Positions 5,522 through 42,051 of a stretch of 47,357 bases of DNA are shown piece by piece. The notes below the pieces were generated by a model. The model saw only the letters and a program-made list of their open reading frames with translations. It was not told the origin of the DNA and searched no databases. The translations under genes were made by a program, and so were the position numbers. Source of the stretch: Maribacter sp. GTDB taxonomy: Bacteria > Bacteroidota > Bacteroidia > Flavobacteriales > Flavobacteriaceae. How positions within the stretch are numbered: position 1 is the first letter of the stretch; every line of letters begins with the position of its first letter. The stretch spans positions 1-47,357 of the forward strand of contig JAHENB010000014.1 of NCBI GenBank assembly GCA_024643345.1, read 5' to 3'.

Positions 5522-5533
5522 TGATAATTATCA
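5522..5533. promoter_or_regulatory. shared divergent TGATAATTATCA operator (M50 protease / pfkB)
   Basis: Inside the 14-bp perfect palindrome 5521-5534. Centre 5527.5. On the plus strand a perfect -7 TATTTTTG starts at 5557; on the minus strand TATTTTCG starts at 5498. Both are exactly 29.5 nt from the centre, so one site can serve two class II-like promoters with starts near 5571 and 5484. Confidence 0.88.
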
Positions 5534-5586
5534 TATGATTGGCCAAGGCTTACTGCTATTTTTGAAGTTACAATATTTGGATACCC

Positions 5587-6552
5587 ATGAAGAAAATCAT
5601 TACGCTTACGGTGAACCCTGCGATAGACAAGAGCACTTCTGTGGAAGGCATAAGGCCCAATAGCAAACTGCGGTGCGAGCCGCCCGTTTTTGAGGCCGGT
5701 GGGGGCGGCATCAATGTTTCCAGGGTCATCAAGGAACTCGGTGGAAACTCGCTCTGCATGCACCTTTCAGGAGGTGCCACGGGGGAACATTTGAAGAACA
5801 TGCTCGATGAAGCGGATATCATGCAACAGATCGTACCCATTTCGGGCTGGACAAGGGAGAATCTTGCCGTGACCGATTCCACTACCGAGCTACAGTACCG
5901 CTTTGGTATGCCGGGACCTGCGGTAAAGGAAAGCGAATGGAAGCAGTGTTTGGAACACCTTGGAGCTCTATTGGTTGCTGGTGACTTCCTCGTGGCAAGC
6001 GGCAGTTTGTCCCCCGGTATGCCCGATGATTTTTTTGCGGAAGTGGCCAAACTGGCGAAGGACAAAAAAGTAAAATTTATACTTGACACTTCCGAGAAAG
6101 CGTTGATAAAGGGCGCCGCGGCCGGAGTATTTTTATTAAAGCCCAATTTAGGGGAACTCAGTGGTCTCTGCGGGGTGAAGTCGATTTCATCGATGAACCT
6201 ATTGCCATTGGCCAAACAATTCCTGGATCAAAATACCTGCGAGATCTTGGTGGTTTCCTTAGGTTCAAGGGGGGCATTATTGGTGACCAAAGACCTTACC
6301 GAATATATTCTGGCGCCAACGGTGCACGCCAAAAGTACCATAGGTGCCGGGGATAGCATGCTGGCGGGCATGGTGAAGGGTTTGGCCGAAGGAAAATCGT
6401 TGGGGGAAATGGCGAAATATGGCGTTGCCTGTGGTACTGCCGCCGCCATGAGCGAAGGCACGCAACTCTGCAAGAAAAAAGAGGTGGATGTGCTTTATGA
6501 ATGGATCCTTGAAAATTCAAAGAAACCGCATAAAATAGAATTGGATACCTAA
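5587..6552 (+). CDS. pfkB: PfkB-family sugar-phosphate kinase (phosphofructokinase-2 type)
   Basis: A 321-residue ribokinase/PfkB-family kinase. The N-terminus LTVNPAIDKS and the substrate motif GGGGINVSRVIKELGG (38-53) are those of 1-phosphofructokinase/Pfk-2 enzymes. The ATP and catalytic motif is STIGAGDSMLAG near 252-263, where the Asp is the catalytic base. It probably phosphorylates fructose 6-phosphate or a related hexose or tagatose phosphate; sequence alone does not decide between these. A perfect -7 box and the shared operator at 5522-5533 control it. The DUF302 gene follows after 11 bp. In mycobacteria pfkB (Rv2029c) is a DosR target, so recruitment of this kinase to a low-oxygen regulon has a precedent. 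Confidence 0.88.
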   Translation: MKKIITLTVNPAIDKSTSVEGIRPNSKLRCEPPVFEAGGGGINVSRVIKELGGNSLCMHLSGGATGEHLKNMLDEADIMQQIVPISGWTRENLAVTDSTTELQYRFGMPGPAVKESEWKQCLEHLGALLVAGDFLVASGSLSPGMPDDFFAEVAKLAKDKKVKFILDTSEKALIKGAAAGVFLLKPNLGELSGLCGVKSISSMNLLPLAKQFLDQNTCEILVVSLGSRGALLVTKDLTEYILAPTVHAKSTIGAGDSMLAGMVKGLAEGKSLGEMAKYGVACGTAAAMSEGTQLCKKKEVDVLYEWILENSKKPHKIELDT

Positions 6553-6563
6553 TCGTAATCAAA

Positions 6564-6950
6564 ATGGAATATTATTTTAAAAAAGAGCTTCCTGGGCAAT
6601 CTTTTGAACAGGCGATTCAGAAAGTAACGGAAGCTTTGAAAAAGGAAGGTTTTGGTGTGTTGACCGAAATAGATATCAAAGCCACCCTGAAGAAGAAATT
6701 GGATGCAGATTTTCATCCCTACGTTATTTTGGGCGCCTGCAATCCGGGCTTTGCATATAAGGCGTTAAAGGCCGAAGATAAAATCGGCACTATGCTCCCT
6801 TGCAATGTCATCGTTCAGGAAAAGCAGGGTATAGTTGAGGTCGCTGCAGTGAATCCCATGGCTTCCATGCAAGCGGTTGAAAATGAATCTCTTGCGGAGG
6901 TGGCAACACAGGTAACGGAAAAGCTGAAACGTATGGTAAATCAACTATAG
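6564..6950 (+). CDS. DUF302 domain protein
   Basis: A 128-residue protein that is almost entirely one DUF302 domain. The diagnostic pattern is present: an amphipathic start with F(x)A(x)3V(x)2ALKKEGFGVLTEID, then KATLKKKLD, YVILGACNPGFAYKALKAE and a C-terminal half with LPCNVIVQ. No signal peptide or membrane helix is visible. The biochemical role of DUF302 is not established; members often occur near sulfur, metal or stress genes. It lies 11 bp after pfkB and is certainly co-transcribed with it. The next operator begins 34 bp after its stop codon. Confidence 0.9.
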   Translation: MEYYFKKELPGQSFEQAIQKVTEALKKEGFGVLTEIDIKATLKKKLDADFHPYVILGACNPGFAYKALKAEDKIGTMLPCNVIVQEKQGIVEVAAVNPMASMQAVENESLAEVATQVTEKLKRMVNQL

Positions 6951-6984
6951 CGGGTGATGAAGCCCTTTTGAAGAACGGGCATAC

Positions 6985-6996
6985 TGATTATTATCA
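6985..6996 (+). promoter_or_regulatory. TGAT-TATT-ATCA operator of the flavin reductase-RNR operon
   Basis: Centre 6990.5. The -7-like TACCTTGA starts at 7020, exactly at the regulon spacing; the match to TAnnTTTG is imperfect. The expected start near 7034 places the ATG at 7054, rather than 7036, as the first usable start codon. It probably serves the four-gene operon 7054-11566. Confidence 0.75.
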
Positions 6997-7053
6997 CCTT
7001 TCTTGGAGGCAGACTTTCGTACCTTGAGGTAATTCGTGCAGATCATTAATAAA

Positions 7054-9853: not shown

Positions 9854-9862
9854 AGGCTGCCG

Positions 9863-11566
9863 ATGTTGACCAAAAATGCCATACAACTTCTCGAGGAACG
9901 TTACCTTTTAAATAAAGGTTTGGCCGAAACGCCCGACCAAATGTTCAGGAGGGTGGCCAAGCACGTTGCCAGTGCCGAGAAACAAGGGAACAAAGCATGG
10001 GAAGAGGCTTTTTATGCGATTATGAAAAATCTTGAATTCCTGCCCAATTCGCCCACTTTGATGAATGCGGGATTGCCCAACGGACAATTGAGCGCTTGTT
10101 TTGTTTTACCGGTGGAAGATAGCCTTACTTCAATTTTCACCACTTTGAAGAATGCTGCATTGATCCACCAAAGTGGGGGAGGAACGGGGTATAATTTTTC
10201 CGATCTTCGGCCCAAGGGCGATAGGGTCAATTCCTCGGGCGGCACCTCTTCGGGACCCATTGCCTTCATGGAAATCTATGATTCGGCGACCGAACATGTG
10301 AAGCAAGGGGGTAAACGCAGGGGCGCCAATATGGGCATCTTAAATGTCAACCATCCCGATATCGAGGATTTTATACTTTCAAAATCAGAGGGTAGGCGTT
10401 TGCAAAATTTCAATATTTCCGTAGGCATCACGGACCATTTTATGGAAGCCGTTGCCGAGGATGGCGATTGGACTTTGGTAAATCCTAGAACGAACAAAGT
10501 TCAGAAAACGGTCAAAGCCAAATCGATTTGGGATTCGGTCGTTCGGGAGGCATGGAAAACAGGAGATCCCGGACTGGTATTCTTGGATACCATCAATCAG
10601 GCGAACCCAACGCCAAAACAGGGCAGCATTATTTCCACCAATCCGTGTGGCGAAGTACCATTGCTGGCTTATGAAAGCTGTAATCTGGGCTCCCTGAATT
10701 TGATGAAGGTCTTGACTTCAAATAAAACAGGACCAGGAATAGATTGGCATCAGTTGGAAACCAATATTGGGGTGGCGATGCGTTTTTTGGATAATGTGAT
10801 CACAGTCAACCATTTTTTGCTGCCTCAAATCAGGGAAACGGCCCATGCGAACCGCAAGGTAGGTTTAGGGGTGATGGGGTGGGCCGAATTGCTCATTTCA
10901 CTCGACATTCCCTATGCCTCTGATGATGCCGTTGCCCTGGGAGAGCGACTAATGGATTTTGTGAAGACGAAGAGTTATGAAACTTCCAAGACACTGGCCA
11001 AAGAAAGGGGAACATTTGGGTCATGGGCCGAAAGTATTTACGCTCCCCATATGCCATTACGGAATGCCACTTGCAATAGCATAGCCCCTACCGGAAGTAT
11101 TTCCGTTATTGCCAATACCTCTTATTCCATCGAACCCCTATACGGACTGGTTTATGAACGTGTGGGCATTTTGGACGGCAAAAACCAGATCGAACGCAAT
11201 GTCGTGGTGGTTGAAAAGTTAAAGCAACTGAAACTTTGGAATGGGCATGTGCGGGAAACAGTATTGAAAACGGGCAGCATACAGCAGGTCAGAACCCTCC
11301 CAACGGCAGTGCGAAAGCTTTTTGAAACGAGCCATGAAGTGCCATGGAAATATCATTTACTTCATCAGAGGGCGTTTCAAAAGCATACCGATAATGCGGT
11401 TTCCAAAACCATTAACCTCCCGAAAATGGCCACCGAAACGGAAATTTCAGAAATATACCGGACCGCATGGGAATTCGGCTTAAAGGGTATTACCATCTAT
11501 CGCGATGGGAGCAAACCGAATCAGATACTCCAAAAGTGTGGCTTAAACCATAGTCCTTATTGCTGA
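9863..11566 (+). CDS. nrdJ: class II (adenosylcobalamin-type) ribonucleotide reductase, compact
   Basis: A 567-residue ribonucleotide reductase catalytic subunit. Cys79 (LSACFVLP) and Cys273 (ESCNLGSLN) form the substrate-reducing pair, and STNPCGE holds Asn260, Cys262 (thiyl radical) and Glu264. GGGTGYNFS and RRGANMG are typical of the cobalamin-dependent class II enzymes. No NrdB-type radical subunit or NrdG activase is near, which supports class II. There is no N-terminal ATP-cone, and the C-terminus ends with a Cys559-x7-Cys567 pair that may pass electrons from thioredoxin. It makes dNTPs without oxygen. It is the last gene of the operon from 7054. A class II enzyme (NrdZ, Rv0570) is also in the mycobacterial DosR regulon. 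Confidence 0.9.
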   Translation: MLTKNAIQLLEERYLLNKGLAETPDQMFRRVAKHVASAEKQGNKAWEEAFYAIMKNLEFLPNSPTLMNAGLPNGQLSACFVLPVEDSLTSIFTTLKNAALIHQSGGGTGYNFSDLRPKGDRVNSSGGTSSGPIAFMEIYDSATEHVKQGGKRRGANMGILNVNHPDIEDFILSKSEGRRLQNFNISVGITDHFMEAVAEDGDWTLVNPRTNKVQKTVKAKSIWDSVVREAWKTGDPGLVFLDTINQANPTPKQGSIISTNPCGEVPLLAYESCNLGSLNLMKVLTSNKTGPGIDWHQLETNIGVAMRFLDNVITVNHFLLPQIRETAHANRKVGLGVMGWAELLISLDIPYASDDAVALGERLMDFVKTKSYETSKTLAKERGTFGSWAESIYAPHMPLRNATCNSIAPTGSISVIANTSYSIEPLYGLVYERVGILDGKNQIERNVVVVEKLKQLKLWNGHVRETVLKTGSIQQVRTLPTAVRKLFETSHEVPWKYHLLHQRAFQKHTDNAVSKTINLPKMATETEISEIYRTAWEFGLKGITIYRDGSKPNQILQKCGLNHSPYC

Positions 11567-16254: not shown

Positions 16255-16313
16255 AATTATATAGAATTAATGAATGGAATGCATAAAATAGGGAGGTTTT
16301 CCATGAAATAATA

Positions 16314-16325
16314 TGACCATCATCA
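16314..16325 (-). promoter_or_regulatory. TGAC-CATC-ATCA operator of the small membrane protein gene
   Basis: Centre 16319.5. On the minus strand TATTTTAT begins at 16290, exactly 29.5 nt away. The expected start is near 16276, 22 nt before the ATG at 16254. Confidence 0.7.
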
Positions 16326-16419: not shown

Positions 16420-16431
16420 TGACATAAATCA
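16420..16431 (+). promoter_or_regulatory. TGAC-ATAA-ATCA operator of the zinc-ribbon gene
   Basis: Centre 16425.5. TAATTTTT, followed by G, starts at 16455 at the regulon spacing. The expected start is near 16469, 40 nt before the ATG. Together with the site at 16314 it fills the 254-bp divergent gap 16255-16508. Confidence 0.75.
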
Positions 16432-16508
16432 TTTCGTATGATCAAAAAGGAAATTAATTTTTGCCCTACAATTTAAGATTTATTTCATGACCCTCAAAAA
16501 CCATAGCT

Positions 16509-17041: not shown

Positions 17042-17551
17042 TTACTGGTTCTGACTCACCGTGACCGTACCATTGCCATCGCCCAATAACAGCATGACCG
17101 ATAAGTCATCTTTCTCGGCCGCAAGTTGACCTCCGGTTCCTGCCACCGTTGTAAAACTTATGGTGAACCCGGCATTTTCCAGTTGTTTTTTATAATTTTC
17201 CAAGGCCTTGTTCGGTACCTCTTCGAACATGATCATCCAATTATTGGCATCTTCCATGGCCTGCGTCGTAGCGCCCATTATTTTGCCCTCTTTGAATTCC
17301 GGGACACTATTGGGAACATCATTGGGCCAGCTACGAACGTTGGCATCGGTGGTAAAGGTGCCTTCCTCGGTCTCAATGACCATCTTCTGGTCATCAATAT
17401 CTACTTTGGCATCCCCGCCGATCGACTCTTCGATCATTTTTTCACTGGTTTTCTCGGCTGCCTGTTTGCACCCGTTTAACGGAAGCACTAGCGCAACTGC
17501 AATGAATAAAATGATTGATCTAAATACGTTTGAAATTTTTTGGGTTTCCAT
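17042..17551 (-). CDS. small lipoprotein of unknown function
   Basis: A 169-residue protein. The start is taken at 17551 (METQKISNVF) because the expected transcript start is near 17605 and a lipoprotein signal begins there: hydrophobic 10-25 followed by LPLNGC, lipidated Cys about residue 27. The mature part has an acidic beginning (EKTSEKMIEES, DAKVDIDD), then WMIMFEEVPNKALENYKKQLENAGF and a Gly-rich end. The pattern of a short beta segment, WMIMF, and helix KALENYKKQLENAGF recurs in small periplasmic sensor-type domains, but I cannot name a family. It is the only gene of its unit, with the operator at 17643. Confidence 0.65.
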   Translation of the reverse strand: METQKISNVFRSIILFIAVALVLPLNGCKQAAEKTSEKMIEESIGGDAKVDIDDQKMVIETEEGTFTTDANVRSWPNDVPNSVPEFKEGKIMGATTQAMEDANNWMIMFEEVPNKALENYKKQLENAGFTISFTTVAGTGGQLAAEKDDLSVMLLLGDGNGTVTVSQNQ

Positions 17552-17642
17552 AGGTGCTTGAATAAAAATGTTCTTTATTCCTAGTTTGTAATCAGTTTTC
17601 AATTTCCTGATTAAAAGTAACGAATTTTGAGATGCGACATAA

Positions 17643-17654
17643 TGACCCAAGTCA
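17643..17654 (-). promoter_or_regulatory. TGAC-CCAA-GTCA operator of the lipoprotein gene
   Basis: Centre 17648.5, inside ATGACCCAAGTCAT. TACTTTTA starts at 17619 on the minus strand, at the regulon spacing. The rest of the 331-bp gene-free stretch 17552-17882 shows nothing I can support. Confidence 0.82.
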
Positions 17655-20032: not shown

Positions 20033-20085
20033 GGGTTCATTTTTTTAGTTGAAGTTAAAATAGGTGACTGATCCGGTTTCCAAAA

Positions 20086-20097
20086 TGATTTTCATCA
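20086..20097 (-). promoter_or_regulatory. TGAT-TTTC-ATCA operator of the WG-SDR-FMN operon
   Basis: Centre 20091.5. TATTTTAA begins at 20062 on the minus strand, the regulon spacing. The expected start is near 20048, 16 nt before the ATG at 20032. Confidence 0.75.
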
Positions 20098-20678: not shown

Positions 20679-20690
20679 TGATTTAGGTCA
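20679..20690. promoter_or_regulatory. shared divergent TGAT-TTAG-GTCA operator (DUF2267 / hibernation factor)
   Basis: Centre 20684.5. Plus strand: perfect -7 TATTTTTG at 20714-20721. Minus strand: CATCTTTA from 20655. Both at 29.5 nt. The plus-strand start near 20728 leaves only a short leader for the hibernation factor. Confidence 0.85.
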
Positions 20691-20741
20691 TATTTAGGCC
20701 GGAAAAACTCCGTTATTTTTGAAAAAAACTAATTGAAAAGC

Positions 20742-22638: not shown

Positions 22639-23286
22639 TTAATTAAGGGCAGCCAACATAGCGGCCCCTGAGGAGGTCCCGATGCGCGAAGCGCCCATGC
22701 TCAGATATTTTTTAGCGGTCGCGGCATCTTTGATTCCTCCTGACGCTTTAATTCCGATGGCATCCCCGACCCATTGTTTTATCAAGGCAACATCTTCTAA
22801 AGTGGCCCCTAACGGACCGAAACCCGTTGAGGTCTTCACAAAATCGGCTCCGGCTCCTATGGCCATTTCACAGGCCAATCGTTTCTCATTCCTATCCAAA
22901 TAACAGGTTTCTAGGATTACCTTGAGCACTTTATCCCCAATGGTTTTTTTTACCTGTGCGATTTCGGCCCCGACCAAACCATAATCCCCCGATTTCATCC
23001 ATCCGATGTTCATCACCATATCAATTTCATCCGCTCCTAGTTCAATGCCCAACCGGGCCTCAAAACACTTGGTTTCGGTTAAATGGGCGCCGGTCGGAAA
23101 ACCCGCAACCGTGACCAGTTTCACCCCGGTGCCATATAGTGCTTCTTTACAGGTTTCCAAATGGCACCCATGGACGCATACGGCATAAAGGTGATATGTT
23201 TTAGCCTCTTCGCACAATTTTTCTATTTCAAGTATGGAGGCATCGGGCTTGAGAAGGGTATGGTCTATGTAGTTTTCCAACAGCAT
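22639..23286 (-). CDS. deoC: deoxyribose-phosphate aldolase
   Basis: A 215-residue TIM-barrel DeoC. NYIDHTLLKPDAS (5-17), the acid-base region DEIDMVMNIGWMKSGD, the Schiff-base Lys in FVKTSTGFGP (about residue 151) and the second Lys in IKASGGIKDA are all intact. It cleaves 2-deoxyribose 5-phosphate to glyceraldehyde 3-phosphate and acetaldehyde. The start overlaps the stop of the TerB-like gene by 1 bp and deoD follows after 7 bp, so the three genes form a tight operon under the operator at 23743. A phosphopentomutase, needed to connect DeoD and DeoC, is not in this operon. Confidence 0.94.
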   Translation of the reverse strand: MLLENYIDHTLLKPDASILEIEKLCEEAKTYHLYAVCVHGCHLETCKEALYGTGVKLVTVAGFPTGAHLTETKCFEARLGIELGADEIDMVMNIGWMKSGDYGLVGAEIAQVKKTIGDKVLKVILETCYLDRNEKRLACEMAIGAGADFVKTSTGFGPLGATLEDVALIKQWVGDAIGIKASGGIKDAATAKKYLSMGASRIGTSSGAAMLAALN

Positions 23287-23690: not shown

Positions 23691-23742
23691 AATTCAATGT
23701 TAAGAAGATATCAAATCTAACTTTAAAATGATTTTCTGGATA

Positions 23743-23754
23743 TGATAAATGTCA
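23743..23754 (-). promoter_or_regulatory. TGAT-AAAT-GTCA operator of the TerB-deoC-deoD operon
   Basis: Centre 23748.5. A perfect TAGATTTG begins at 23719 on the minus strand at the regulon spacing. On the plus side the same distance falls on the kinase start codon (23778), so it cannot drive the histidine kinase gene in the same way. Confidence 0.85.
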
Positions 23755-23777
23755 GTTATAAAAGCTAATTTTGAAAC

Positions 23778-25301
23778 ATGCAGGTTTTCCAAAAGAACAG
23801 TAATATTTTCAATTTGCTTTCGGAAGGGGTCTCCGAAGGCATTCTTGTCGTCAACAAACATCAGGTCATCGTGGCCACCAACTCATCCGCGGAGGAGATG
23901 TTTGGCTATTCAAAAGATGAATTATTGGGTCAATCCCTTGATCTGCTTATTCCATCAAAATATAGGCTTGCGCATAAAGATTATGTGATCGATTTTGTGG
24001 CAACAAGTGAAAAACGCCAGATGGGGCATGGTAAAAACCTTTACGGCCTTCGAAAAAATGGAGAGGAGTTTCCTGTAGAAGCAGGGTTGAACCCTTTTGA
24101 CCTCTATGGTGTTACCTATGTAATGGCCCTGGTCATTGATATTACCGAACGTAAAAAGGCAGAAAGGGAACTGATCCATTGGTCGAACATCTTTAACGAA
24201 TCGTTAAACGAGATTTTCATTTTTGATGCCAAAACCCTGCACTTCAAAAATGTGAACAAGGGGGCCCTAAAGAACATGGGCTATACCTTGGGAGAATTTA
24301 AAAATTTGACACCCATTGACATCAATCCCAAGTTCGATGAATCCGGTTTTCAAAATCTGATCGCCCCGCTTCTCAGCGATCAAACGGAAAAAATAGAATT
24401 TGAATCATTACACCAACGAAAGGACGGTTCTGCTTATCCGGTGGAAGCGCACCTGCAAATATCCGACTTAGGGGAAGAGCAAGTGTTCGTTGCGATTATT
24501 TTGGATATTACCGAAAGAAAGAATTATACAGAAAAATTGGAAAGAACGGTGGAGGAGCGAACCAAACAGCTCACCGAGGCTTTGGCGAAGGAGAAGGAGC
24601 TCAATGAATTGAAGACACGCTTTTTATCGCTGGTATCCCATGAGTTTAAGACCCCTTTGAGCAGTATTCTCACATCGGTTACCCTGTTGTCGAAATACAA
24701 GCTTACAGACCAGCAGGGCAATCGGGAAAAGCATGTGGATACCATAAAGAACAAGGTGCGGTATTTAGATGCGATACTTAACGATTTTCTTTCCCTGGAG
24801 CGTTTGGAATCGGGGAAGGTCAATTATAAAATAGATCATTTTCCATTGAGCAAGCTGATCAATGAGGTCGTATATGATGCCAATTTGTTGTTGAAGGAGG
24901 GCCAAAAAATTATCTATCCCCAAGATATCGATCACATCAATTTGGCTTTTGAACAGAAAATTTTGGAGTTGGCCTTATCGAATTTGGTGCACAACGCGAT
25001 TAAATATTCGGCGGAGAATACCGTTATCGAAATTCGGGTAATAGAAAACCGCGATAGCTTGGAGCTCGATATTATCGATGAAGGGATAGGCATTCCGGCC
25101 GAAGAACAGAAACATATTTTTAATCGTTATTTTAGAGCAGAGAATGCCCTGCTGAACCAAGGCACCGGAATCGGTTTGAGTATTGCCAAACAGCATCTTG
25201 AAAATTTGGGCGCTACCTTGAGTTTTACAAGTGAAGAAAATAAAGGATCTATATTTACGATAAAAATTCCAGAAAACGTCGTGGTGAATGCTCTTTCGTA
25301 G
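23778..25301 (+). CDS. PAS-PAS sensor histidine kinase, FixL-like
   Basis: A 507-residue kinase without membrane helices: PAS1 (about 10-125), PAS2 (135-248), coiled coil (250-280), HisKA with H-box SLVSHEFKTPLS (His288) and HATPase_c with NLVHNAIKYS, DEGIGI and GTGIGLS. PAS1 aligns with the FixL oxygen-sensing PAS domain: RxxH-x2-Y (His66, the place of the haem-ligating His200), and GHGK-x4-GLRKNGEEFP, with Lys where FixL has Arg220. Other, non-haem PAS domains share parts of this pattern, so haem binding is likely but not proven. The response regulator with a Crp/Fnr output follows after 105 bp. It is soluble, as expected for a sensor of diffusible gas or redox state. Confidence 0.88.
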   Translation: MQVFQKNSNIFNLLSEGVSEGILVVNKHQVIVATNSSAEEMFGYSKDELLGQSLDLLIPSKYRLAHKDYVIDFVATSEKRQMGHGKNLYGLRKNGEEFPVEAGLNPFDLYGVTYVMALVIDITERKKAERELIHWSNIFNESLNEIFIFDAKTLHFKNVNKGALKNMGYTLGEFKNLTPIDINPKFDESGFQNLIAPLLSDQTEKIEFESLHQRKDGSAYPVEAHLQISDLGEEQVFVAIILDITERKNYTEKLERTVEERTKQLTEALAKEKELNELKTRFLSLVSHEFKTPLSSILTSVTLLSKYKLTDQQGNREKHVDTIKNKVRYLDAILNDFLSLERLESGKVNYKIDHFPLSKLINEVVYDANLLLKEGQKIIYPQDIDHINLAFEQKILELALSNLVHNAIKYSAENTVIEIRVIENRDSLELDIIDEGIGIPAEEQKHIFNRYFRAENALLNQGTGIGLSIAKQHLENLGATLSFTSEENKGSIFTIKIPENVVVNALS

Positions 25302-25406: not shown

Positions 25407-26459
25407 ATGAAAAGCGTACTGTTAATTGAAGATGATAAGGCCCTCAGGGAAAATACGGCAGAGTTGCTCGAACTTTCAAACTATTCGGTAATGACCGCCG
25501 CCAACGGCATCATCGGGATACAAATGGCTGAGGATCACATGCCCGACGTGATCGTTTGCGACATCATGATGCCAGAGCTTGACGGCTATGGGGTACTTCA
25601 AAGCCTTGCTTCCCGTCAAAGTACCATGCACATACCTTTTATCTTTCTTTCTGCCAAAACAGAACATAAGGAAGTCCGAAAGGGCATGGACCTTGGCGCG
25701 GACGATTATTTGACCAAACCGTTTGAGGAGGACGACCTGATCAGTGCTATAGAAAGCAGGCTCGCAAAGTCCGAGATATTGTCCCGTATGAACCAGGGGC
25801 TCCCGGTTAAATCGGATATTTCGGAACAAGAGATGCGTTCGTTGAACGAGCTCAAGAATTTTTTTGATGATAATGGGGAAGAGGAACTTTATGCCGAGGG
25901 GCAAATGATCTTTAAGGAAGGCACGCACTCCCATAAAATATACCTTATTTTGAAGGGTTTGGTGAAATGCCATAAAATAGATGCCGACGGTAAGGAATTG
26001 ATCACCTCCCTCTACAGGGCGGATGATTTTTTGGGACTGACGTCCTTTATCAACAATGTGCCATATCAAGAATCGGCAACTGCAATGGAAGAGGTGGTAC
26101 TGGTGGGCATCTCAAAATCACGATTAAAGGAAGTTTTGGAACAAAACCATTCCATATCATTTGAACTGATGGAATTGCTGACGCAGAACATTACCGATAT
26201 CAAGGGCCAATTATTACAAATGGCCTATAGTTCCGTTAGAAAGAAAACGGCCCAAACCCTGCTTCAATTCGCGGAGGTCTTGAATAAAAAAACCGAAGAC
26301 CCCATCAAAATATCAAGGAACGATCTTGCCAGTGTAGCGGGCATCGCTACCGAAACCTTGATCCGTACACTTTCCGGATTCAAGAAAGAGGGCCTTATTG
26401 CGATCGAGGGCAGGAATATCAGAATCAAGGAATTAAAAGCATTGCATTACGTTTCATAG
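25407..26459 (+). CDS. response regulator fused to a Crp/Fnr DNA-binding module
   Basis: A 350-residue protein. Residues 1-125 form a receiver domain (acidic Glu8-Asp9-Asp10, phospho-acceptor Asp52 in CDIMMPELDG, Lys104 in LTKPF). A linker leads to a cNMP-binding-like barrel (about 145-255, FKEGTHSHKIYLILKGLVK), dimerisation helix and winged HTH (300-340). The HTH aligns without gaps to Fnr: ATETLIRTL against TVETISRLL, keeping the Glu and Arg that read TGA but with Ile for Ser212. No cluster-binding Cys set is present. It thus joins the roles of FixJ and FixK in one protein. It is the best candidate to bind the TGAY-N4-RTCA sites around it. The gap before it (25302-25406) holds CGAT-TCAA-ATCG at 25325-25336, without a -7 element at the regulon distance. 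Confidence 0.9.
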   Translation: MKSVLLIEDDKALRENTAELLELSNYSVMTAANGIIGIQMAEDHMPDVIVCDIMMPELDGYGVLQSLASRQSTMHIPFIFLSAKTEHKEVRKGMDLGADDYLTKPFEEDDLISAIESRLAKSEILSRMNQGLPVKSDISEQEMRSLNELKNFFDDNGEEELYAEGQMIFKEGTHSHKIYLILKGLVKCHKIDADGKELITSLYRADDFLGLTSFINNVPYQESATAMEEVVLVGISKSRLKEVLEQNHSISFELMELLTQNITDIKGQLLQMAYSSVRKKTAQTLLQFAEVLNKKTEDPIKISRNDLASVAGIATETLIRTLSGFKKEGLIAIEGRNIRIKELKALHYVS

Positions 26460-26496: not shown

Positions 26497-26508
26497 TGAT
26501 AATTATCA
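26497..26508 (+). promoter_or_regulatory. TGATAATTATCA operator of the first USP gene of the cluster
   Basis: Centre 26502.5, within the 14-bp palindrome 26496-26509. A perfect -7 TACATTTG starts at 26532. The expected start near 26546 rules out translation from 26518 and supports the ATG at 26587. Confidence 0.9.
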
Positions 26509-26586
26509 TATCCAGCTTTGAATTGCGGAACTACATTTGTCAATATTTTTCTTGAAAGCCATCAACCAGCTTATGAAGTTCCTTGC

Positions 26587-27420
26587 ATGAAGCATATACT
26601 AGTTCCGACAGATTTTTCAATAAATGCCTGGAACGCCTTCGAATATGCCCGCAAGCGATTCGAGCACGTGCCATGTAGGTTTTATGTCCTCCACGTTGCG
26701 GGCCTTGCCGACTCACCCATTACAGCCAATTCCTTGGTTCTTGCCAAATCTGAAAACAAATCTGCAAAAAAGGATATGAGAACCCTTTTTGAGCGCATTT
26801 CACGATTGACACCCAATGCGAACCATAAATTCATGGCACTCCATCAATACGGATATTTCGTGGATATGGTACGAAAGGCCATTGATGAGAACAATATTGA
26901 ATTGTTGGTCATGGGAACCAAAGGTGCGGATGGGATCAAGGCCAGCGTGATCGGTAGCAATACCGGCGACGTAATCCATAAAGTAAGATGCGATATTTTA
27001 ATCGTTCCTGAAAACGCGGTTTTTGAACCGATACGAGAAGTGGCATTCCCCACGGATTTCAATACTTTTTACACCCACCATGTCTTAGAATCCTTATCGG
27101 AGATCTTGGCCACGGGCGAGACAAAATTGAGGGTTGTGCACGTGAAGGCCCATAAGGGTCAACTCAGCGTGAATCAGGAGCAGAACAGGGTCTACCTGAA
27201 AGATTATTTAGAGGAATTATATAAGGAAGTCCATTCTTTCCATATGGTAACCAACACCAAGGTTTCAAAGGCGATAGAGGAATTTACGGATCTTATGGGG
27301 ATTGATCTAGTCGTAATGGTGGCCAAAAATTTAAATTTTCTGCAACAGCTCCTTTTCGATTCTTCGATCCAGAAGGTAAGTTTCCATACAGAGGTCCCCT
27401 TGCTGGTGCTGCATGAATAA
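26587..27420 (+). CDS. tandem universal stress protein
   Basis: A 277-residue protein with two UspA-like domains. Domain 1 opens KHILVPTDFSINAWNAFEYA and has the ATP-loop VMGTKGADGIKASVIGSNTGDV. Domain 2 (from about 140, REVAFPTDFNTFYTHH) lacks the G-x2-G-x9-G loop and ends with the variant MVAKNLNFLQQLLFDSSIQKVSFHTEVPLLV. The start at 26587 follows from the promoter position. It is transcribed alone; the next gene has its own operator. The closest relative in the window is the USP at 34052, which shares the VAKNLNFLQ ending in place of KHSFLE. Confidence 0.9.
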   Translation: MKHILVPTDFSINAWNAFEYARKRFEHVPCRFYVLHVAGLADSPITANSLVLAKSENKSAKKDMRTLFERISRLTPNANHKFMALHQYGYFVDMVRKAIDENNIELLVMGTKGADGIKASVIGSNTGDVIHKVRCDILIVPENAVFEPIREVAFPTDFNTFYTHHVLESLSEILATGETKLRVVHVKAHKGQLSVNQEQNRVYLKDYLEELYKEVHSFHMVTNTKVSKAIEEFTDLMGIDLVVMVAKNLNFLQQLLFDSSIQKVSFHTEVPLLVLHE

Positions 27421-27443: not shown

Positions 27444-27455
27444 TGATAATTATCA
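27444..27455 (+). promoter_or_regulatory. TGATAATTATCA operator of the three-USP operon
   Basis: Centre 27449.5. A perfect -7 TACTTTTG starts at 27479, expected transcript start near 27493. The first gene begins only at 27632, so there is a leader of about 139 nt. Confidence 0.9.
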
Positions 27456-27486
27456 TAGATTTAAGCAAACTACACCAATACTTTTG

Positions 27487-30237: not shown

Positions 30238-30507
30238 TTACAATGCAATATCTGAAGTGAAATCGTCAAATACCAACTTTGTGGCATTTGGGGCGGTGCA
30301 ACTATAATCGGTAATGGGATGGCCAATCCTGCGCAGTTCCTGTTTTACCTTTTCAAAGCAGCCAGGGCTGTCATACAGAAAGGAAAGCATTCCCCTGATG
30401 ATATCGATATCGACAATCCTTATATCGAGAATGCGACTGAGGTTTCTGATCACGGTATTCTGAGATTCGATCGATTTTAAATCTTCAATTTTTGCTGTGG
30501 CTTTCAT
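30238..30507 (-). CDS. small HMA-like protein without metal cysteines
   Basis: An 89-residue protein from the ATG at 30507. The order NTVIRNLSRILDIRIVDID - IRGMLSFLYDSP - CFEKVKQELRRIGHPI looks like a beta-alpha-beta-beta-alpha ferredoxin-like fold, as in heavy-metal-associated domains, but there is no CxxC; single cysteines are at SPGC and YSC. Function is unknown. The start is firmly placed: a perfect -7 TAATTTTG occupies 30536-30529 and the operator at 30560 is shared with the divergent ROK gene, so the expected transcript start is near 30522 and a start at 30636 is excluded. Confidence 0.65.
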   Translation of the reverse strand: MKATAKIEDLKSIESQNTVIRNLSRILDIRIVDIDIIRGMLSFLYDSPGCFEKVKQELRRIGHPITDYSCTAPNATKLVFDDFTSDIAL

Positions 30508-30559
30508 GGATATGAATTTTGGGTTGAGCAAAATTACAGTATTGGCCGAACGTATAAAA

Positions 30560-30571
30560 TGACCTAGGTCA
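30560..30571. promoter_or_regulatory. shared divergent TGACCTAGGTCA operator (HMA-like / ROK kinase)
   Basis: Part of the 14-bp perfect palindrome 30559-30572. Centre 30565.5. Minus strand: perfect TAATTTTG from 30536. Plus strand: TTGGTTTA from 30595 (two mismatches). Both at the regulon distance. Confidence 0.85.
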
Positions 30572-30624
30572 TGTGGGCGCTTTTTTATTTTATCTTGGTT
30601 TATAATCTTAATTTTGGTTGTCGA

Positions 30625-31593
30625 ATGGTCAAGCAATATGTCTTAGGGATAGATATCGGAGGTACTTTTACCAAAATCGGAATCGTTGATTTGGAAGGGA
30701 CTATTCTTAAAAACACCGTATATAAGACGGGCGCAAATGCCTTTTACGGGGATTTTTTGAACAAATTGGAAGTGCAGGTGAACCTGCTCAGAAAAGCCCT
30801 CAACAAGAATGACCGGCTTTTATGCATAGGGGTGGGTGCGCCCAATGCCAATTATTTGACCGGCCTTATGGAACATCCCGTAAATTTTCGATGGGGCGAT
30901 AAGGTACCTTTGGTATCGGAAATCGAAAAACTTTTTGGATTACCGGTCTATATTGCCAATGATGCGAACGCCGCTGCCTTGGGCGAATTGTATTTTGGCT
31001 CAGGGAAAAATATGAAAGATTTTGTAGTCTTGACCTTGGGTACGGGGTTGGGAAGCGGTATTATAGCCAATGGTGAAATTTTGAGAGGGGCCCACGGAAT
31101 GGCCGGGGAAATCGGCCATGTGAACGTAGATCCCAACGGTCGCAATTGTAAATGCGGCCTGCAAGGTTGTTTGGAGACCTATGCTTCGGTGACCGGAATT
31201 AAACGCACCGTATTCGAACTTTTGGCCGAAATGACCGTTGACTCCGCAATGCGCCGGATAAGTTACGATGAAATGACCGGTGAAATGATTGCCAATGCAG
31301 CTTTGGAAGGCGATGAGGTCGCCTTGACCGCGTTTGAAAAAACGGCATTGGTTCTGGGCGGCAAGATGGCAGATACAGCAGCCCATCTCGATCCAGAGGC
31401 TTTTATTTTGAGCGGGGGGCTAAGCAAGGCCGGGGCCATTCTCCTAAATCCGGTAATCACCAGTATGGAAAAAAACCTGTTTAAGGCCTACAGGGGCAAA
31501 ATCAAGGTGATGATCTCAGACCTTCCTGGGGCGAGCGCCGTTTTGGGGCCCGCTGCCTTGGCATGGCAGCAAATCAATCGCATGAAAACTTAA
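30625..31593 (+). CDS. ROK-family sugar kinase (glucokinase-like)
   Basis: A 322-residue ROK kinase. The ATP motif VLGIDIGGTFTKIGIVD (6-22), the catalytic region YIANDANAAALGE with the base Asp, LGTGLGSGI, and the zinc site GHVNVDPNGRNCKCGLQGCLE (His plus three Cys) are intact. There is no N-terminal HTH, so it is an enzyme, not a repressor. It probably phosphorylates glucose or another free hexose, feeding glycolysis. The start is at 30625 because the expected transcript start is near 30609. The 3' end overlaps the convergent small helical protein gene by 4 bp. Confidence 0.88.
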   Translation: MVKQYVLGIDIGGTFTKIGIVDLEGTILKNTVYKTGANAFYGDFLNKLEVQVNLLRKALNKNDRLLCIGVGAPNANYLTGLMEHPVNFRWGDKVPLVSEIEKLFGLPVYIANDANAAALGELYFGSGKNMKDFVVLTLGTGLGSGIIANGEILRGAHGMAGEIGHVNVDPNGRNCKCGLQGCLETYASVTGIKRTVFELLAEMTVDSAMRRISYDEMTGEMIANAALEGDEVALTAFEKTALVLGGKMADTAAHLDPEAFILSGGLSKAGAILLNPVITSMEKNLFKAYRGKIKVMISDLPGASAVLGPAALAWQQINRMKT

Positions 31594-32048
31594 TGTTCTA
31601 AAAGATGCTCTAGGCGCTCGCTGTCAATTACATATTCGGTTAAAGTAAAAAGCTCCTTTCTGTTTTCCCTTACACTTTTAATAAATTCGGCAATCTCATT
31701 TTCCAATTCCTCATGATCGTCACGAAATACCTTGGTATTGAATTTTGTGGGATCATCGATGAGGCTTGCAAGTTGCGCCAAATGCTTGTCTATTTGGTCC
31801 AATAGGGTATCACATGCCAAAGTATCCGCCAGAATATTCTGGCCAATGGTCTGCACCGCCTTCAAATTCTCCGTTTGGGTAATCCAAATAAAATATTTGT
31901 CCAACAAGTGGTGCAGAAACTTTAGGTCATCTTTGTAGAAGAGCAGATCTGATTTCCAATGTTCTGTTAAGACATAAAGCTCTTGCCACTGGGAATTTTG
32001 CAAATAGCTGTCTTTTGGCCGCATTCTATACTCGTTCATCACATTCAA
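31590..32048 (-). CDS. small helical protein, paralogue A
   Basis: A 152-residue cytoplasmic all-helical protein (an alternative ATG at 32039 gives 149). It is one of four related proteins in the window (also 33332, 41579, 42169). The family signature is near the N-terminus: W-x-S-x-L-x-F-x-x-D-[ED]-x-x-F-L-x-x-L-L-x-x-Y, here HWKSDLLFYKDDLKFLHHLL (about 31-50). A middle helix with DKHLAQLASLID and a C-terminal helix (FRDDHEELENEIAEF then RKELFTLTEYVI) follow. There is no membrane helix or metal motif. Function unknown. It is transcribed alone from the operator at 32106 with -7 TACCTTTA. Confidence 0.8.
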   Translation of the reverse strand: MNVMNEYRMRPKDSYLQNSQWQELYVLTEHWKSDLLFYKDDLKFLHHLLDKYFIWITQTENLKAVQTIGQNILADTLACDTLLDQIDKHLAQLASLIDDPTKFNTKVFRDDHEELENEIAEFIKSVRENRKELFTLTEYVIDSERLEHLLEH

Positions 32049-32105
32049 TTTTAGGTGAGAAAATAATTGTCATCTAAAGGTAGCTACGACATTGACGGCA
32101 ACACA

Positions 32106-32117
32106 TGATTTTGGTCA
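32106..32117 (-). promoter_or_regulatory. TGAT-TTTG-GTCA operator of paralogue A
   Basis: Centre 32111.5. TACCTTTA starts at 32082 on the minus strand, the regulon spacing. It separates the chaperone operon from the paralogue A gene although both lie on the same strand. Confidence 0.82.
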
Positions 32118-33331: not shown

Positions 33332-33745
33332 TTATTTTTTTTGTACTTTCATTTTCTCCAAAACACTGTGGGCAATGCCAAATATTTCTTGCTTGGCCGA
33401 ATTGAAACGCAATTTGAAGGTAGCCATTTTTTTTTGAAGACTTTTGTGCGTCCTGGCCATATCTGATACCAAGGCAAGGTTTGGGCGCTCGATGAAACCT
33501 GCAAGACGATCGCGATGCTGCACCATTTCCTTTAACAATGTTTCATTGGCATGTCCCAAATCTTGCAACTGCATGACCTCTTCTCTAATTTCATCCAAGT
33601 TTTCGATCTTAACCACCTCCAGATAATAGCGGTCGATCAACCGCCTCAAAAATTGCATTTCATCCTTATAGAGCGATAGGGCCGAAATCCAATCCAAGGT
33701 GATTTCATATTGGTTTTGCATAGGGCCGTTTGCCATTTGTTCCAT
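33332..33745 (-). CDS. small helical protein, paralogue B
   Basis: A 137-residue helical protein with the family signature DWISALSLYKDEMQFLRRLI (18-37), followed by a helix with NETLLKEMVQHRDRLAGFIE and a basic C-terminal helix (THKSLQKKMATFKLRF, QEIFGIAHSVLEKM). It is first in the operon with cbpA and cbpM, which suggests a chaperone- or aggregation-related role, by inference. It has a perfect -7 TATTTTTG at 33778-33771, with the operator at 33802. The ATG at 33745 or the one at 33736 may be used. Confidence 0.8.
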   Translation of the reverse strand: MEQMANGPMQNQYEITLDWISALSLYKDEMQFLRRLIDRYYLEVVKIENLDEIREEVMQLQDLGHANETLLKEMVQHRDRLAGFIERPNLALVSDMARTHKSLQKKMATFKLRFNSAKQEIFGIAHSVLEKMKVQKK

Positions 33746-33801
33746 CCTTCCTTATTTTTTTGATTGGTCCCAAAAATAATGGGAACTAAAAATTAGGCAT
33801 A

Positions 33802-33813
33802 TGACTTTGATCA
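33802..33813 (-). promoter_or_regulatory. TGAC-TTTG-ATCA operator of the paralogue B-cbpA-cbpM operon
   Basis: Centre 33807.5. A perfect TATTTTTG starts at 33778 on the minus strand at the regulon distance. The gene-free stretch 33746-34051 (306 bp) holds this site and the one at 33893, each facing its own gene. Confidence 0.88.
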
Positions 33814-33892: not shown

Positions 33893-33904
33893 TGATCAAA
33901 ATCA
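33893..33904 (+). promoter_or_regulatory. TGAT-CAAA-ATCA operator of the USP gene at 34052
   Basis: Centre 33898.5. TAATTTTA starts at 33928, the regulon distance. The expected start near 33942 gives a leader of about 110 nt. Additional half-sites (TGAT, ATCA) lie on both sides between 33870 and 33910. Confidence 0.8.
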
Positions 33905-34051
33905 TATGATATGGAATGGTTGGCCGCTAATTTTAAAGCCTTATCCAGTTCAATTTACCTATGGTAGACCAATTGGGCATTTGCAGCAGAAAGCTTAAAA
34001 GACACTTTTTATGCAAGCGCAATAATGACCAACTAAACAGTGAAAGGTTTT

Positions 34052-35208: not shown

Positions 35209-35261
35209 GGATATTGAAATTTATGGTTCGGCAATTTATGAAAATTGACCAAATGCAAAAC

Positions 35262-35273
35262 TGACCAATATCA
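35262..35273. promoter_or_regulatory. shared divergent TGAC-CAAT-ATCA operator (thioredoxin / USP)
   Basis: Centre 35267.5. Plus strand: TACTTTTA from 35297. Minus strand: TAAATTGC from 35238. Both lie at 29.5 nt. The same TGACCAATATCA sequence occurs again at 41519. Confidence 0.82.
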
Positions 35274-35328
35274 TAGTGGACTATCGGCTTCACCTTTACT
35301 TTTATCGGGAGTCTAAAATGATGCGAAA

Positions 35329-36162: not shown

Positions 36163-36182
36163 AGGCATAAATACCATCAATT

Positions 36183-37031
36183 ATGCAACATATTTTGGTC
36201 GCTTCAGATTTTTCCAACAATGCGTACAATGCCCTTTTCTATACTTCGAAATTATTCAGGCACAAACCCTGTACTTTCTTTTTGCTAAATGCCTATGATG
36301 TTCATACCCCTTTGATAAGCAAGAGCATTGCCAATGAAGAAAAGAAAGACTTTTTGGAACAGTTGCGCGATGAATCTTTGGAAGGCCTGACACAGACATT
36401 GCACCGAATCAATTTAGACGACCCAAACCCAAAGCACCGATATCAATTGATAACCGCACATGGAGATGTCACCGAGGAGATTGTGAAGGCCGCACGCCAA
36501 CATAAGGCAGATTTGGTGGTCATGGGCAATAAGGGCGCCACGGGTAACATTTCGGTTTTTCTTGGAAGTAAGAGCACTAAGACCATTTCGGCCCTGCAGA
36601 CTTGCCCCGTATTTGCCGTACCCGAAGAAGCCGAATTTGAAATACCAAATGAAATCGCTCTTGCCACTGATTACAAACGGCCGCTAAAACCCGAAATGAT
36701 CAAACCCCTGCGCGATATGGCGCAGCTCTGTCATGCCGCGGTAAGGATCTTGCACATCCATGAGGAAGAAAAATTGGACAAGGAACAAGAGGCCAATCTT
36801 AAATTTTTACTGGACCAATTGAAGCCATTGGACCATTCAACCTACTGGCTGCCCAGTTTTGCAAGTAAAACAGATGCCATTCAAGCGTTTTTGGATGGGT
36901 TGGGCATTGGCATGCTGGTTATGATCGACTACAAGTTAGGCTTTATGGAAAAGCTTTTGCGGGAGCCGGTCATCACCAAAATGATGTTCAACATTTCAAT
37001 TCCGTTTTTGGTCATTCCCGAAAGTGACTGA
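36183..37031 (+). CDS. tandem universal stress protein
   Basis: A 282-residue protein, second gene after 35329. Domain 1: QHILVASDFSNNAYNALFY, with ASD in place of PTD, and loop VMGNKGATGNISVFLGSKSTKTI. Domain 2: NEIALATDYKRPLKPEM, ending MLVMIDYKLGFMEKLLREPVITKMMF. It is more diverged than its neighbours in both halves. The stop codon TGA (37029-37031) forms the first three bases of the next operator, so the following promoter starts within this gene. Confidence 0.9.
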   Translation: MQHILVASDFSNNAYNALFYTSKLFRHKPCTFFLLNAYDVHTPLISKSIANEEKKDFLEQLRDESLEGLTQTLHRINLDDPNPKHRYQLITAHGDVTEEIVKAARQHKADLVVMGNKGATGNISVFLGSKSTKTISALQTCPVFAVPEEAEFEIPNEIALATDYKRPLKPEMIKPLRDMAQLCHAAVRILHIHEEEKLDKEQEANLKFLLDQLKPLDHSTYWLPSFASKTDAIQAFLDGLGIGMLVMIDYKLGFMEKLLREPVITKMMFNISIPFLVIPESD

Positions 37032-37040
37032 TAATTATCA
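37029..37040 (+). promoter_or_regulatory. TGATAATTATCA operator of the USP-MscS-MBL operon
   Basis: Centre 37034.5, overlapping the stop codon of the gene before. TAATTTTA starts at 37064, the regulon spacing, with an expected start near 37078. It probably drives five genes from 37100 to 41508. Confidence 0.87.
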
Positions 37041-37099
37041 TAGTGTTACAACCCTTTGGAAATTAATTTTATACCCGAACGAAACAAAATTTGAGTATC

Positions 37100-37951: not shown

Positions 37952-37963
37952 AATCACTATATC

Positions 37964-39277: not shown

Positions 39278-39281
39278 AAGT

Positions 39282-40124: not shown

Positions 40125-40137
40125 AAGCAGTGTTATT

Positions 40138-41508: not shown

Positions 41509-41518
41509 AGGGCCGAAC

Positions 41519-41530
41519 TGACCAATATCA
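41519..41530 (+). promoter_or_regulatory. TGAC-CAAT-ATCA operator of paralogue C
   Basis: Centre 41524.5. TAGTTTTA starts at 41554, the regulon spacing. The expected start is near 41568, just before the ATG at 41579; ATGs at 41534 and 41561 are therefore excluded. Confidence 0.83.
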
Positions 41531-41578
41531 TTTTTGGGTATGGTAATCGGTAGTAGTTTTATGGAAAGAAAATTGCTC

Positions 41579-42010
41579 ATGAATGCCGAAAATGATTTTA
41601 CCAAAATCGATCAATCCAAAAAAGTCGATCAACTCTATTTGGAATTAATGCAGTGGAATTCGGCCTTGCGGTTTATGGGCGATGAAATACACTTTTTAGA
41701 GCACCTTCTCAATTCTTACGCATTCGAACCCAAAACGCCCAATCTCTTCGAACGTTTGCTCGATTATCAGGAGCGGGTAAAAAAGGCCAAAACAGAGGAA
41801 TCCGTGGTTGCGACCCATATCAGGAAGCACAAAAACGACCTTGGCGGAATGCTCGAATGTACAGATGATGCCTGCGACCTGACCTATTTCCAAAAACATG
41901 CCAAATTAAAGGCCGAATGGACCGCTTGCCTAGAGGATTTCCAAAATCTGAAATCCGAGATTTTCAATTATGCCGGTGCCATCCTAAAAAGGAAAAAACC
42001 AGACCTCTAG
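41579..42010 (+). CDS. small helical protein, paralogue C
   Basis: A 143-residue helical protein of the family with paralogues A, B and D. Signature QWNSALRFMGDEIHFLEHLL (about 26-45). The middle has THIRKHKNDLGGMLECTDDACD, with two cysteines absent from the other paralogues, and the end has KAEWTACLEDFQNLKSEIF. The start at 41579 follows from the promoter. It is transcribed alone; paralogue D has its own operator 30 bp after the stop codon of this gene. Function unknown. Confidence 0.8.
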   Translation: MNAENDFTKIDQSKKVDQLYLELMQWNSALRFMGDEIHFLEHLLNSYAFEPKTPNLFERLLDYQERVKKAKTEESVVATHIRKHKNDLGGMLECTDDACDLTYFQKHAKLKAEWTACLEDFQNLKSEIFNYAGAILKRKKPDL

Positions 42011-42039
42011 GCCATGAAGAATCATTTCAATTAATAAAC

Positions 42040-42051
42040 TGATATTGGTCA
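42040..42051 (+). promoter_or_regulatory. TGAT-ATTG-GTCA operator of the paralogue D operon
   Basis: Centre 42045.5. TAAATTGG starts at 42075, the regulon spacing; the match to TAnnTTTG is imperfect and resembles that of thioredoxin. The expected start is near 42089, giving a leader of about 80 nt before 42169. Confidence 0.72.

Follow-up and report, generated by a model that had tools for sequence, protein, structure and literature searches.

The regulators of the rhizobia that have FixL at their head are the closest described counterparts of the system considered here. Passages of PMC7888657 describe the FixL-FixJ-FixK and hFixL-FxkR-FixK plus FnrN systems, in which a FixL-like kinase, a receiver protein and a CRP/FNR output on a TGA palindrome are combined with cbb3 oxidase targets and a cysteine-bearing FNR that reads the same box; there the receiver protein induces fixK in a two-step cascade. 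A comparable set of components is found in a stretch of 47,357 nucleotides from Maribacter sp. (Flavobacteriaceae; assembly GCA_024643345.1, contig JAHENB010000014.1, positions 1 to 47,357, forward strand), the whole of which is referred to below as the window. Palindromic repeats of the form TGAY-N4-RTCA stand in this window at a fixed distance of 23 nucleotides from TAnnTTTG-like promoter boxes, and the receiver and the CRP/FNR output of its candidate activator form one polypeptide. The reading favored, with a probability of roughly 0.7, is that these parts belong to a FixL-FixJ-FixK-like cascade in which the receiver is fused to an FNR-like activator that would act beside FNR or in its place. 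The system differs from those of the rhizobia in the outer operator base (A or C in place of T), in phylum, and in having universal stress protein (USP) genes as targets.

Regulons of the FNR/Anr class II type offer a second comparison. They are alike in operator position, in hemN and oxidase targets and in a cysteine-bearing CRP/FNR protein, but the half-site here is [A/C]TGAY instead of TTGAT, the second candidate reader is a response regulator, and the FNR-type protein scores under the Fnr cut-off. For Anr, PMC6588701 names hemN among the Anr-box genes. On the promoter side, passages of PMC9723704 place the sigma-A box TAnnTTTG of F. psychrophilum, the same box as here, at -12 to -5, and report cbb3 oxidase and heme-synthesis genes as induced at low oxygen; the paper covers sigma motifs, and the word "crp" is absent from its main text. 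Two CRP/FNR regulators of redox type are described from P. gingivalis, of the same phylum, namely PgRsp, with no receiver domain apparent in the search listing for PMC6955866, and HcpR (structure 9day), with none apparent in the Foldseek listing. A meta-regulon study of nitritation-anammox communities gives a Flavobacteriales CRP/FNR homologue under changing oxygen a MalR-like role in carbon metabolism and, unlike the present analysis, mentions no Flavobacteriales FNR or receiver fusion in its available passages (PMC8510549), while a passage of PMC1183210 excludes DNA-binding response regulators from consideration. A literature search through titles, the beginnings of abstracts and some passages found no receiver-CRP regulator, and no FNR or low-oxygen operator, for Flavobacteriaceae.

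The repeats are far more frequent than composition predicts, and their distance from the box is fixed. The window holds 26 copies of TGAYNNNNRTCA against 3.88 expected, a number that none of 100 shuffles attained. All 18 repeats listed by the initial annotation are present at their positions, and its counts of seven perfect TAnnTTTG boxes and six TAnnTTTA boxes at 23 nucleotides hold, as do its four identical sites TGATAATTATCAT (5522, 26497, 27444 and 37029). By open reading frame (ORF) picking 17 of the 18 are intergenic; the repeat at 17643 overlaps the start of an ORF that has probably been extended too far. None of the eight repeats outside that list (six coding, two intergenic at 2857 and 11594) has TAnnTTT at 23 nucleotides, the one at 2857 having, when read leftwards, the box CAGTTTTG with 5 of 6 box positions. 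Over all 26 sites and both strands, TAnnTTT stands at spacing 23 in 14 of 52 site-strands, against 0 or 1 at any other spacing from 10 to 44. The combination of operator, 23 nucleotides and TAnnTTT is found 14 times in the window, compared with a mean of 0.013 and a maximum of 1 in 300 dinucleotide shuffles, and nine times in 24 cut-out intergenic pieces, compared with no element in 500 intergenic shuffles. The comparison with shuffled DNA that had been proposed as a check on the repeats therefore came out as an enrichment. Boxes and operators are alike AT-rich and mostly intergenic, so that an artefact of chance or composition might be suspected, but both sets of shuffles refute it, as does the backwards pattern, which occurs once in the organism's own genome and 0 to 2 times per family genome. 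A chance origin was ruled out by enrichment, spacing and shuffle counts, and its residual probability is negligible.

How many promoters this represents depends on the stringency applied to the box. With at least 5 of 6 box positions, spacing 23 is occupied at 15 of the 18 listed sites, or 16 of 36 site-strands (other spacings mean 0.45 of 36); only the site at 5522 qualifies on both strands, and the best boxes of sites 6985, 16314 and 20086 reach 4 of 6. At the lenient level of 4 of 6, there are 23 of 36 site-strands and five sites on both strands (other spacings mean 2.16, maximum 7). The claim of four repeats acting on both strands to give 22 promoters was thus an over-count, reached only at the lenient level, and the well-supported window promoters number 16.

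With a box at -12 to -5, a spacing of 23 nucleotides makes the 12-base-pair repeat span -47 to -36 and centers the palindrome at -41.5, which we take to be the class II position of E. coli CRP and FNR. The proposal of a class II CRP/FNR site near -41.5 on a Bacteroidota sigma-A promoter is accordingly supported by the exact spacing together with the published box position. The geometry itself, that of class II CRP/FNR promoters, is known; in Flavobacteriaceae it recurs widely and with unusual regularity.

Comparison of 199 genomes of the family (198 genera) relates the operators to two kinds of regulator. The element counted was the operator followed at 23 nucleotides by TAnnTTTG; a receiver-CRP/FNR fusion of either type was scored as present at a best E below 1e-70 and an FNR-type protein at a best E below 1e-45, a genome with no listed match was scored as lacking the regulator, and these class cut-offs were placed at a gap in the values after the distributions had been seen. 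Genomes with neither regulator (n=43) have a mean of 0.9 operators, and 26 of them have zero, whereas no genome is without operators among those with the fusion only (n=37, mean 8.4), with FNR only (n=70, mean 6.3) or with both (n=49, mean 12.8). Per megabase (Mb), each regulator class differs from the class with neither at a Mann-Whitney p <1e-12, in statistics that carry no correction for phylogenetic kinship. In a quick tree of 30 fusions, in which 16 of 28 inner branches have less than 80% support and gains and losses are not distinguished, at least eight changes are needed to account for the presence of FNR, and the supported branches require no fewer than four of them.

A search of the organism's own genome (3.70 Mb, 67 contigs) for the Crp helix-turn-helix (HTH) domain gave six matches, five of them above cut-off. 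The proteins that matter for the argument, together with the kinase, are the following.

23778..25301, plus strand: sensor histidine kinase with PAS regions, HisKA and HATPase (Pfam).
25407..26459, plus strand: receiver-CRP/FNR fusion response regulator of 350 amino acids, with Response_reg, cNMP_binding and HTH_Crp_2 (Pfam); candidate activator.
Contig C5, 49529-50242: FNR-type protein, with cysteines 11, 14, 60 and 113 in 30 of the 30 best-scoring orthologues.
3751..4386, minus strand: other Crp-type protein of the window, with the recognition region TSRVVISR; disfavored as reader.

The fusion has the marks of a response regulator, since D9, D10, D52 and K104 of its receiver, comprising the acidic pair, the phosphoacceptor aspartate and the lysine, are kept in 30 of the 30 best-scoring fusions, and a kinase gene lies next to it in all 20 loci read. 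The recognition helix A-x-E-[ST]-x-I-R is likewise found in all 30, and its key positions E, I and R are the same in the 30 best-scoring FNR-type proteins; the form A-T-E-[ST]-x-I-R is common to the window fusion, a second fusion on contig C5 and the FNR-type protein. The key recognition-helix residues being the same in both, each of the two proteins could apparently read the operator. None of the 30 best-scoring fusions has any of the four cysteines conserved in FNR. Cyclic AMP (cAMP) was rejected as ligand of the fusion, as the pocket residues are missing: in place of Arg-Ser, presumably the pair that binds cAMP in the cAMP receptor protein, there is ES in P0001 and ES or ET in seven relatives. 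A structure prediction for the fusion has confidently modeled domains (mean pLDDT 79.5) and a pTM of 0.40, at which the arrangement of the domains is uninterpretable, and the best 50 of 1938 Foldseek matches to the model are CRP/FNR-type chains and RpaA, with no receiver-CRP chain.

The operator that these proteins would read, in its extended form [A/C]TGAY-N4-RTCAT, is itself distinctive. A or C dominates before TGA, and T stands there in 2 of 68 sites of fusion-only genomes, 4 of 41 of FNR-only genomes and 0 of 16 own sites, so that the outer T of the FNR/FixK half-site is not characteristic of any of these three site sets. That operator, TTGAT-N4-ATCAA, is the anaerobox of passages in PMC7888657. 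Operator profiles of fusion-only and FNR-only genomes have no position that clearly tells them apart. At the recognition-helix position aligned to E. coli FNR Ser212, as we assume that residue to be, the two candidate readers alike carry Ile (in 30 of 30 sequences of each), and this replacement may account for the different outer base of the operator.

The kinase and its genomic surroundings extend the likeness to FixL. The solved structures nearest to kinase residues 1-135 are FixL (8e-15), DosP (2e-13) and an E. coli heme PAS domain, all ahead of other PAS domains, and a histidine is found in 21 of 21 kinase sequences at the position that we take to be that of the FixL heme ligand; the first PAS region thus resembles that of FixL in nearest structure and in this residue. 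Twenty loci of window-type fusions were chosen, some for high scores and some for lying in fusion-only genomes. In all 20 the kinase gene lies directly upstream of the fusion gene, and an operator (with TAnnTTT at 23) and then a USP gene lie directly downstream of it. An operator also stands ahead of the kinase gene in 17 of 21 loci. On its divergent side TAnnTTT is at 23 nucleotides in 15 of the 17; on the kinase side TAnnTTT[GA] is at 10-12 nucleotides in seven, the own locus included, and at 24-25 in another seven, the other three having it at 28, at 16 or not at all. It is possible that the divergent gene is activated while the kinase and fusion genes are under negative feedback from a non-activating register.

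Sites of this kind are not confined to the window. A scan of the own genome for the operator, 22-24 nucleotides and TAnnTTT returned 39 matches, 37 at spacing 23 and two at 24, against one for the backwards pattern, so that the whole-genome scan suggested in the initial annotation bears out its element. The 37 are divided among the window (14), contig C5 at 49-114 kilobases (kb; 17) and elsewhere (6). When TAnnTTTG is allowed at spacings 8-38 there are 35 matches, 17 of them at 23; a count fixed at 23 gives 18, the additional one being C5:102187 (TAAATTTG at 23 nucleotides), which entered the wider scan only under a shorter spacing. The operator-rich island C5:44000-120000 includes the FNR-type gene, ccoNO (COX1+FixO), hemN (TIGR00538 above cut-off), a phosphotransacetylase gene (pta) and the second receiver-CRP fusion with a kinase of its own. 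Genes there that were named by eye are nosZ-like, ackA-like, Hsp20-like and cation-ATPase-like, and a free-standing receiver domain of 125 amino acids, 45% identical to that of the fusion, is encoded at C5:94347-94724. These distributions alter the larger claims made for the window. The sites do make up a coherent regulon, but one that is not confined to these 37 kb, as only 14 of the 37 sites lie in the window, and control of almost every gene between 4.4 and 44.3 kb is not supported either, since the promoters had been over-counted and 7.0-15.9 kb has 4/6 candidates only. Nor is one activator supported: either FNR or the fusion accompanies the operators over the 199 genomes, and the own genome has FNR and a second fusion. 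The protein at 25407-26459, which had been named as the regulator, stands as a credible reader, though not as the sole one, given that the FNR-type protein and the second fusion have the same key helix residues.

The candidate promoters of the window, each an operator with a box at 23 nucleotides unless another distance is given, are as follows; the last three are weak.

5522..5564, plus strand: box TATTTTTG, before the pfkB-family gene 5587.
5491..5533, minus strand: the 5522 operator read leftwards, box TATTTTCG (5/6), before the M50/CBS gene 4387-5472 and the Crp gene 3751.
16420..16462, plus strand: box TAATTTTT, before the zinc-ribbon gene 16509.
17612..17654, minus strand: box TACTTTTA, for gene 17042-17650, whose start is probably over-extended.
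20679..20721, plus strand: box TATTTTTG, before the hibernation-factor gene 20733 (S30AE), then USP gene 21058.
23712..23754, minus strand: box TAGATTTG, before 23286-23690 (134 amino acids, without Pfam family), 22639 and 21933.
23743..23773, plus strand: the 23712 operator on its kinase side, box TAATTTTG at 11 nucleotides (center about -29.5), a register in which blocking would be expected.
26497..26539, plus strand: box TACATTTG, directly 3' of the fusion gene and before USP ORF 26518-27420, whose true start is probably downstream of the box.
27444..27486, plus strand: box TACTTTTG, before USP genes 27632, 28496 and 29358.
30529..30571, minus strand: box TAATTTTG, before a small gene in ORF 30238-30636, without Pfam family.
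32075..32117, minus strand: box TACCTTTA, before 31590-32048, without Pfam or NCBIfam family.
33771..33813, minus strand: box TATTTTTG, before 33332-33745 and the DnaJ-like gene 32420.
33893..33935, plus strand: box TAATTTTA, before USP gene 34040.
35262..35304, plus strand: box TACTTTTA, before USP genes 35329 and 36183.
37029..37071, plus strand: box TAATTTTA, before USP 37091, then 37964, MscS-like 38378, ATP-cone 39282 and beta-CASP 40102.
41519..41561, plus strand: box TAGTTTTA, before 41534-42010, whose start is probably over-extended.
42040..42082, plus strand: box TAAATTGG (5/6), before 42058, 42627 and 43264 (2-hydroxyacid dehydrogenase).
6985..7027, plus strand: box TACCTTGA (4/6), before the flavin-reductase gene 7036.
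16283..16325, minus strand: box TATTTTAT (4/6).
20055..20097, minus strand: box TATTTTAA (4/6), before 19376, SDR 18602 and FMN-binding 17883.

For the genes at 7.0-15.9 kb the sole candidate promoters are thus those at 6985 (rightward) and 16314 (leftward), both with 4/6 boxes; this operator-poor stretch of the island includes a ribonucleotide-reductase large-subunit-like gene (9863-11566, 567 amino acids).

Much of the target set is common to relatives with one or the other regulator. Operator regions were read in four fusion-only genomes (G143, G027, G101 and G130) and five FNR-only genomes (G059, G044, G072, G017 and G107, with G169 left out). A hemN relative lies 3' of an operator in all four and all five, ccoS in three of four and five of five, and the hibernation factor in two of each; family profiles were run for one example each of hemN and ccoS (FixS, TIGR00847), the other ccoS genes being named by eye. 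Hibernation-factor relatives with an operator occur in G027, G130, G072, G107, G069 and G198. A USP gene is the first gene after an operator in three of the four fusion-only and none of the five FNR-only genomes, a split that is blurred by G044 and G017, FNR-only genomes in which, by coordinates, a USP gene lies directly behind an operator-led hemN. Among the matches listed, USP genes number 2.1 per genome with neither regulator, 6.2 with FNR only, 12.7 with the fusion only and 13.2 with both, in a scoring with a ceiling near 19. The five cleaner fusion-only genomes together have 40 operators. Of the 30 that were read, six precede a USP gene, two a hibernation factor, one hemN, two a cytochrome c gene, one the gene of an ATPase that we take to be CcoI-like, three a flavin/NAD(P)-type oxidoreductase gene and 12 other or unassigned genes, while three lie inside picked ORFs. 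The operators read in G198, G040 and G069, taken together, include ones ahead of USP, hemN, hibernation-factor, cytochrome c and CcoI-like genes.

The simplest competing explanation is that the FNR-type protein is the sole reader and that the fusion has other binding sites or a different function. FNR is the classical oxygen regulator, its gene lies on C5 between operators and beside cbb3 genes, FNR-only genomes have operators and the same core targets, and outside the family two fusion-less genomes (G210 and G290) have operators as well. This is nevertheless unlikely, because the 37 genomes that lack this FNR by the cut-off all have operators and because its recognition residues recur in 30 of 30 fusions; FNR as sole reader was rejected on the strength of the operators in FNR-less, fusion-only genomes. 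Other Crp proteins were read in 13 of these 37 genomes (20 proteins). The cleanest cases are G198, G040 and G069, whose two Crp-HTH matches are the fusion itself and one protein of TSRVVISR type; G190 and G114 come close to this, apart from a single unread match that is weak or unlisted. The converse, in which the fusion at 25407-26459 would be the single activator of the window regulon, is somewhat less probable still. The order kinase, fusion, operator, USP in all 20 loci speaks for it, as do the rise in listed USP genes from 6.2 per genome with FNR only to 12.7-13.2 with the fusion, and the position of USP as first gene in three of four fusion-only against none of five FNR-only genomes. Against it, FNR and a second fusion, identical in these recognition residues, are encoded in the own genome, FNR-only genomes keep an identical operator and spacing, and USP follows operator-led hemN in G044 and G017. 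That the Crp protein 3751-4386 reads the operators is highly improbable. Its gene and 4387, as an operon-like pair, lie behind the 5522 operator, but its recognition region, TSRVVISR (TSRVV[IV]SR being shared with a C37 protein), lacks the glutamate of the TGA-reading type, and a protein of this type also occurs in two genomes without any operator, G073 and G087 (at two loci each, of five and four HTH matches, the rest being unclassified by the motif scan). It was rejected on these two grounds.

A number of observations weigh against the favored cascade of a receiver fused to an FNR-like activator. By curated NCBIfam scores the fusion is not a FixK member and the FNR-type protein is not an Fnr member: among CRP-type models FixK fits the CRP half of the fusion best, at 73 bits, under its cut-off of 300 and with a receiver present, and PRK11161 (Fnr) is the best hit of the FNR-type protein at 105 bits, with a curated cut-off of 228. 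The cysteine spacing of the latter also differs from what we take to be the layout of E. coli FNR. In the kinase, a histidine at the aligned position is also found in non-heme PAS domains, and at the arginine position of the FixL GxGR motif, presumably the one that contacts oxygen, 17 of 21 sequences have Arg and the own kinase has Lys. There is no TAnnTTT operator 3' of the fusion gene in G143, and three fusion-only genomes (G130, G027 and G075) encode additional Crp proteins whose helix contains Glu and Arg. The co-occurrence over the 199 genomes is weakened by the placing of the cut-offs and the neglect of kinship given above, and by the smaller genomes of the class with neither regulator (mean 2.26 vs 3.34-3.84 Mb); among genomes of at least 2.5 Mb, that class still has a mean of 1.2 (n=13) vs 6.8-12.8. 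This class has 39 operators in total, 24 of them in G048, G147, G138 and G051 (3-9 each) and 15 in the other 39 genomes. Completeness is 82% for G048, 73% for G147 and 88% for G051, while G138, 99% complete, has five operators with neither FNR nor fusion by the cut-offs and stands as an exception.

Beyond the family the correspondence is also less tight. Named relatives of the fusion are from Flavobacteriaceae (Pelagihabitans, 83%; Arenibacter, 76-77%; Pricia, Maribacter, Saonia and others), and fusions occur in 56 of 395 genomes sampled from the phylum, in several families of the class. The element is present in 30 of 35 genomes from other families, mostly in 1-6 copies and at most 11, with a backwards control of 0 or 1 each. 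Also weighing against the favored cascade, five of 33 fusion genomes outside the family are without operators, and the fusion-less G210 and G290, from another family of the order, have six and 10. The link between operator and fusion is therefore one established only within the window's family.

A mechanism can be proposed that joins the enrichment, co-occurrence, conserved residues and gene order computed here. The repeats would be operators of CRP/FNR-superfamily activators on sigma-A promoters, at which an activator dimer on [A/C]TGAY-N4-RTCAT at -41.5 would touch RNA polymerase in class II fashion; the fusion and FNR would each be expected to bind TGATAATTATCA. FNR, with its four conserved cysteines, probably senses oxygen through an iron-sulfur cluster, and the fusion 25407-26459 would be activated by phosphotransfer from the kinase 23778-25301, whose FixL-like PAS probably senses oxygen through heme. 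The pathway through the fusion would run beside FNR, or alone in lineages without FNR. From the kinase PAS and the target genes, both of which point that way, we infer oxygen limitation as the signal, and under low oxygen or energy limitation the program switched on would comprise cbb3 oxidase assembly, hemN, cytochromes, the ribosome hibernation factor and universal stress proteins. A more specific history has about even odds: the receiver-FNR fusion and a FixL-like heme kinase, a cascade in one protein, may have replaced FNR in the control of its regulon (cbb3 assembly, hemN, cytochromes) among several FNR-less lineages of Flavobacteriaceae, where FNR would have been lost and not merely never gained, with operator and 23-nucleotide geometry unchanged, a universal-stress and dormancy island added, and the kinase-fusion operator often at a non-activating register (10-12 or 24-25 nucleotides) that suggests feedback.

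For a common family of marine bacteria, the analysis gives a precise operator, two candidate readers and the geometry of the promoters. Since some natural genomes lack one of the readers, it can be tested directly how the operators of a regulon persist through a change of sensor.

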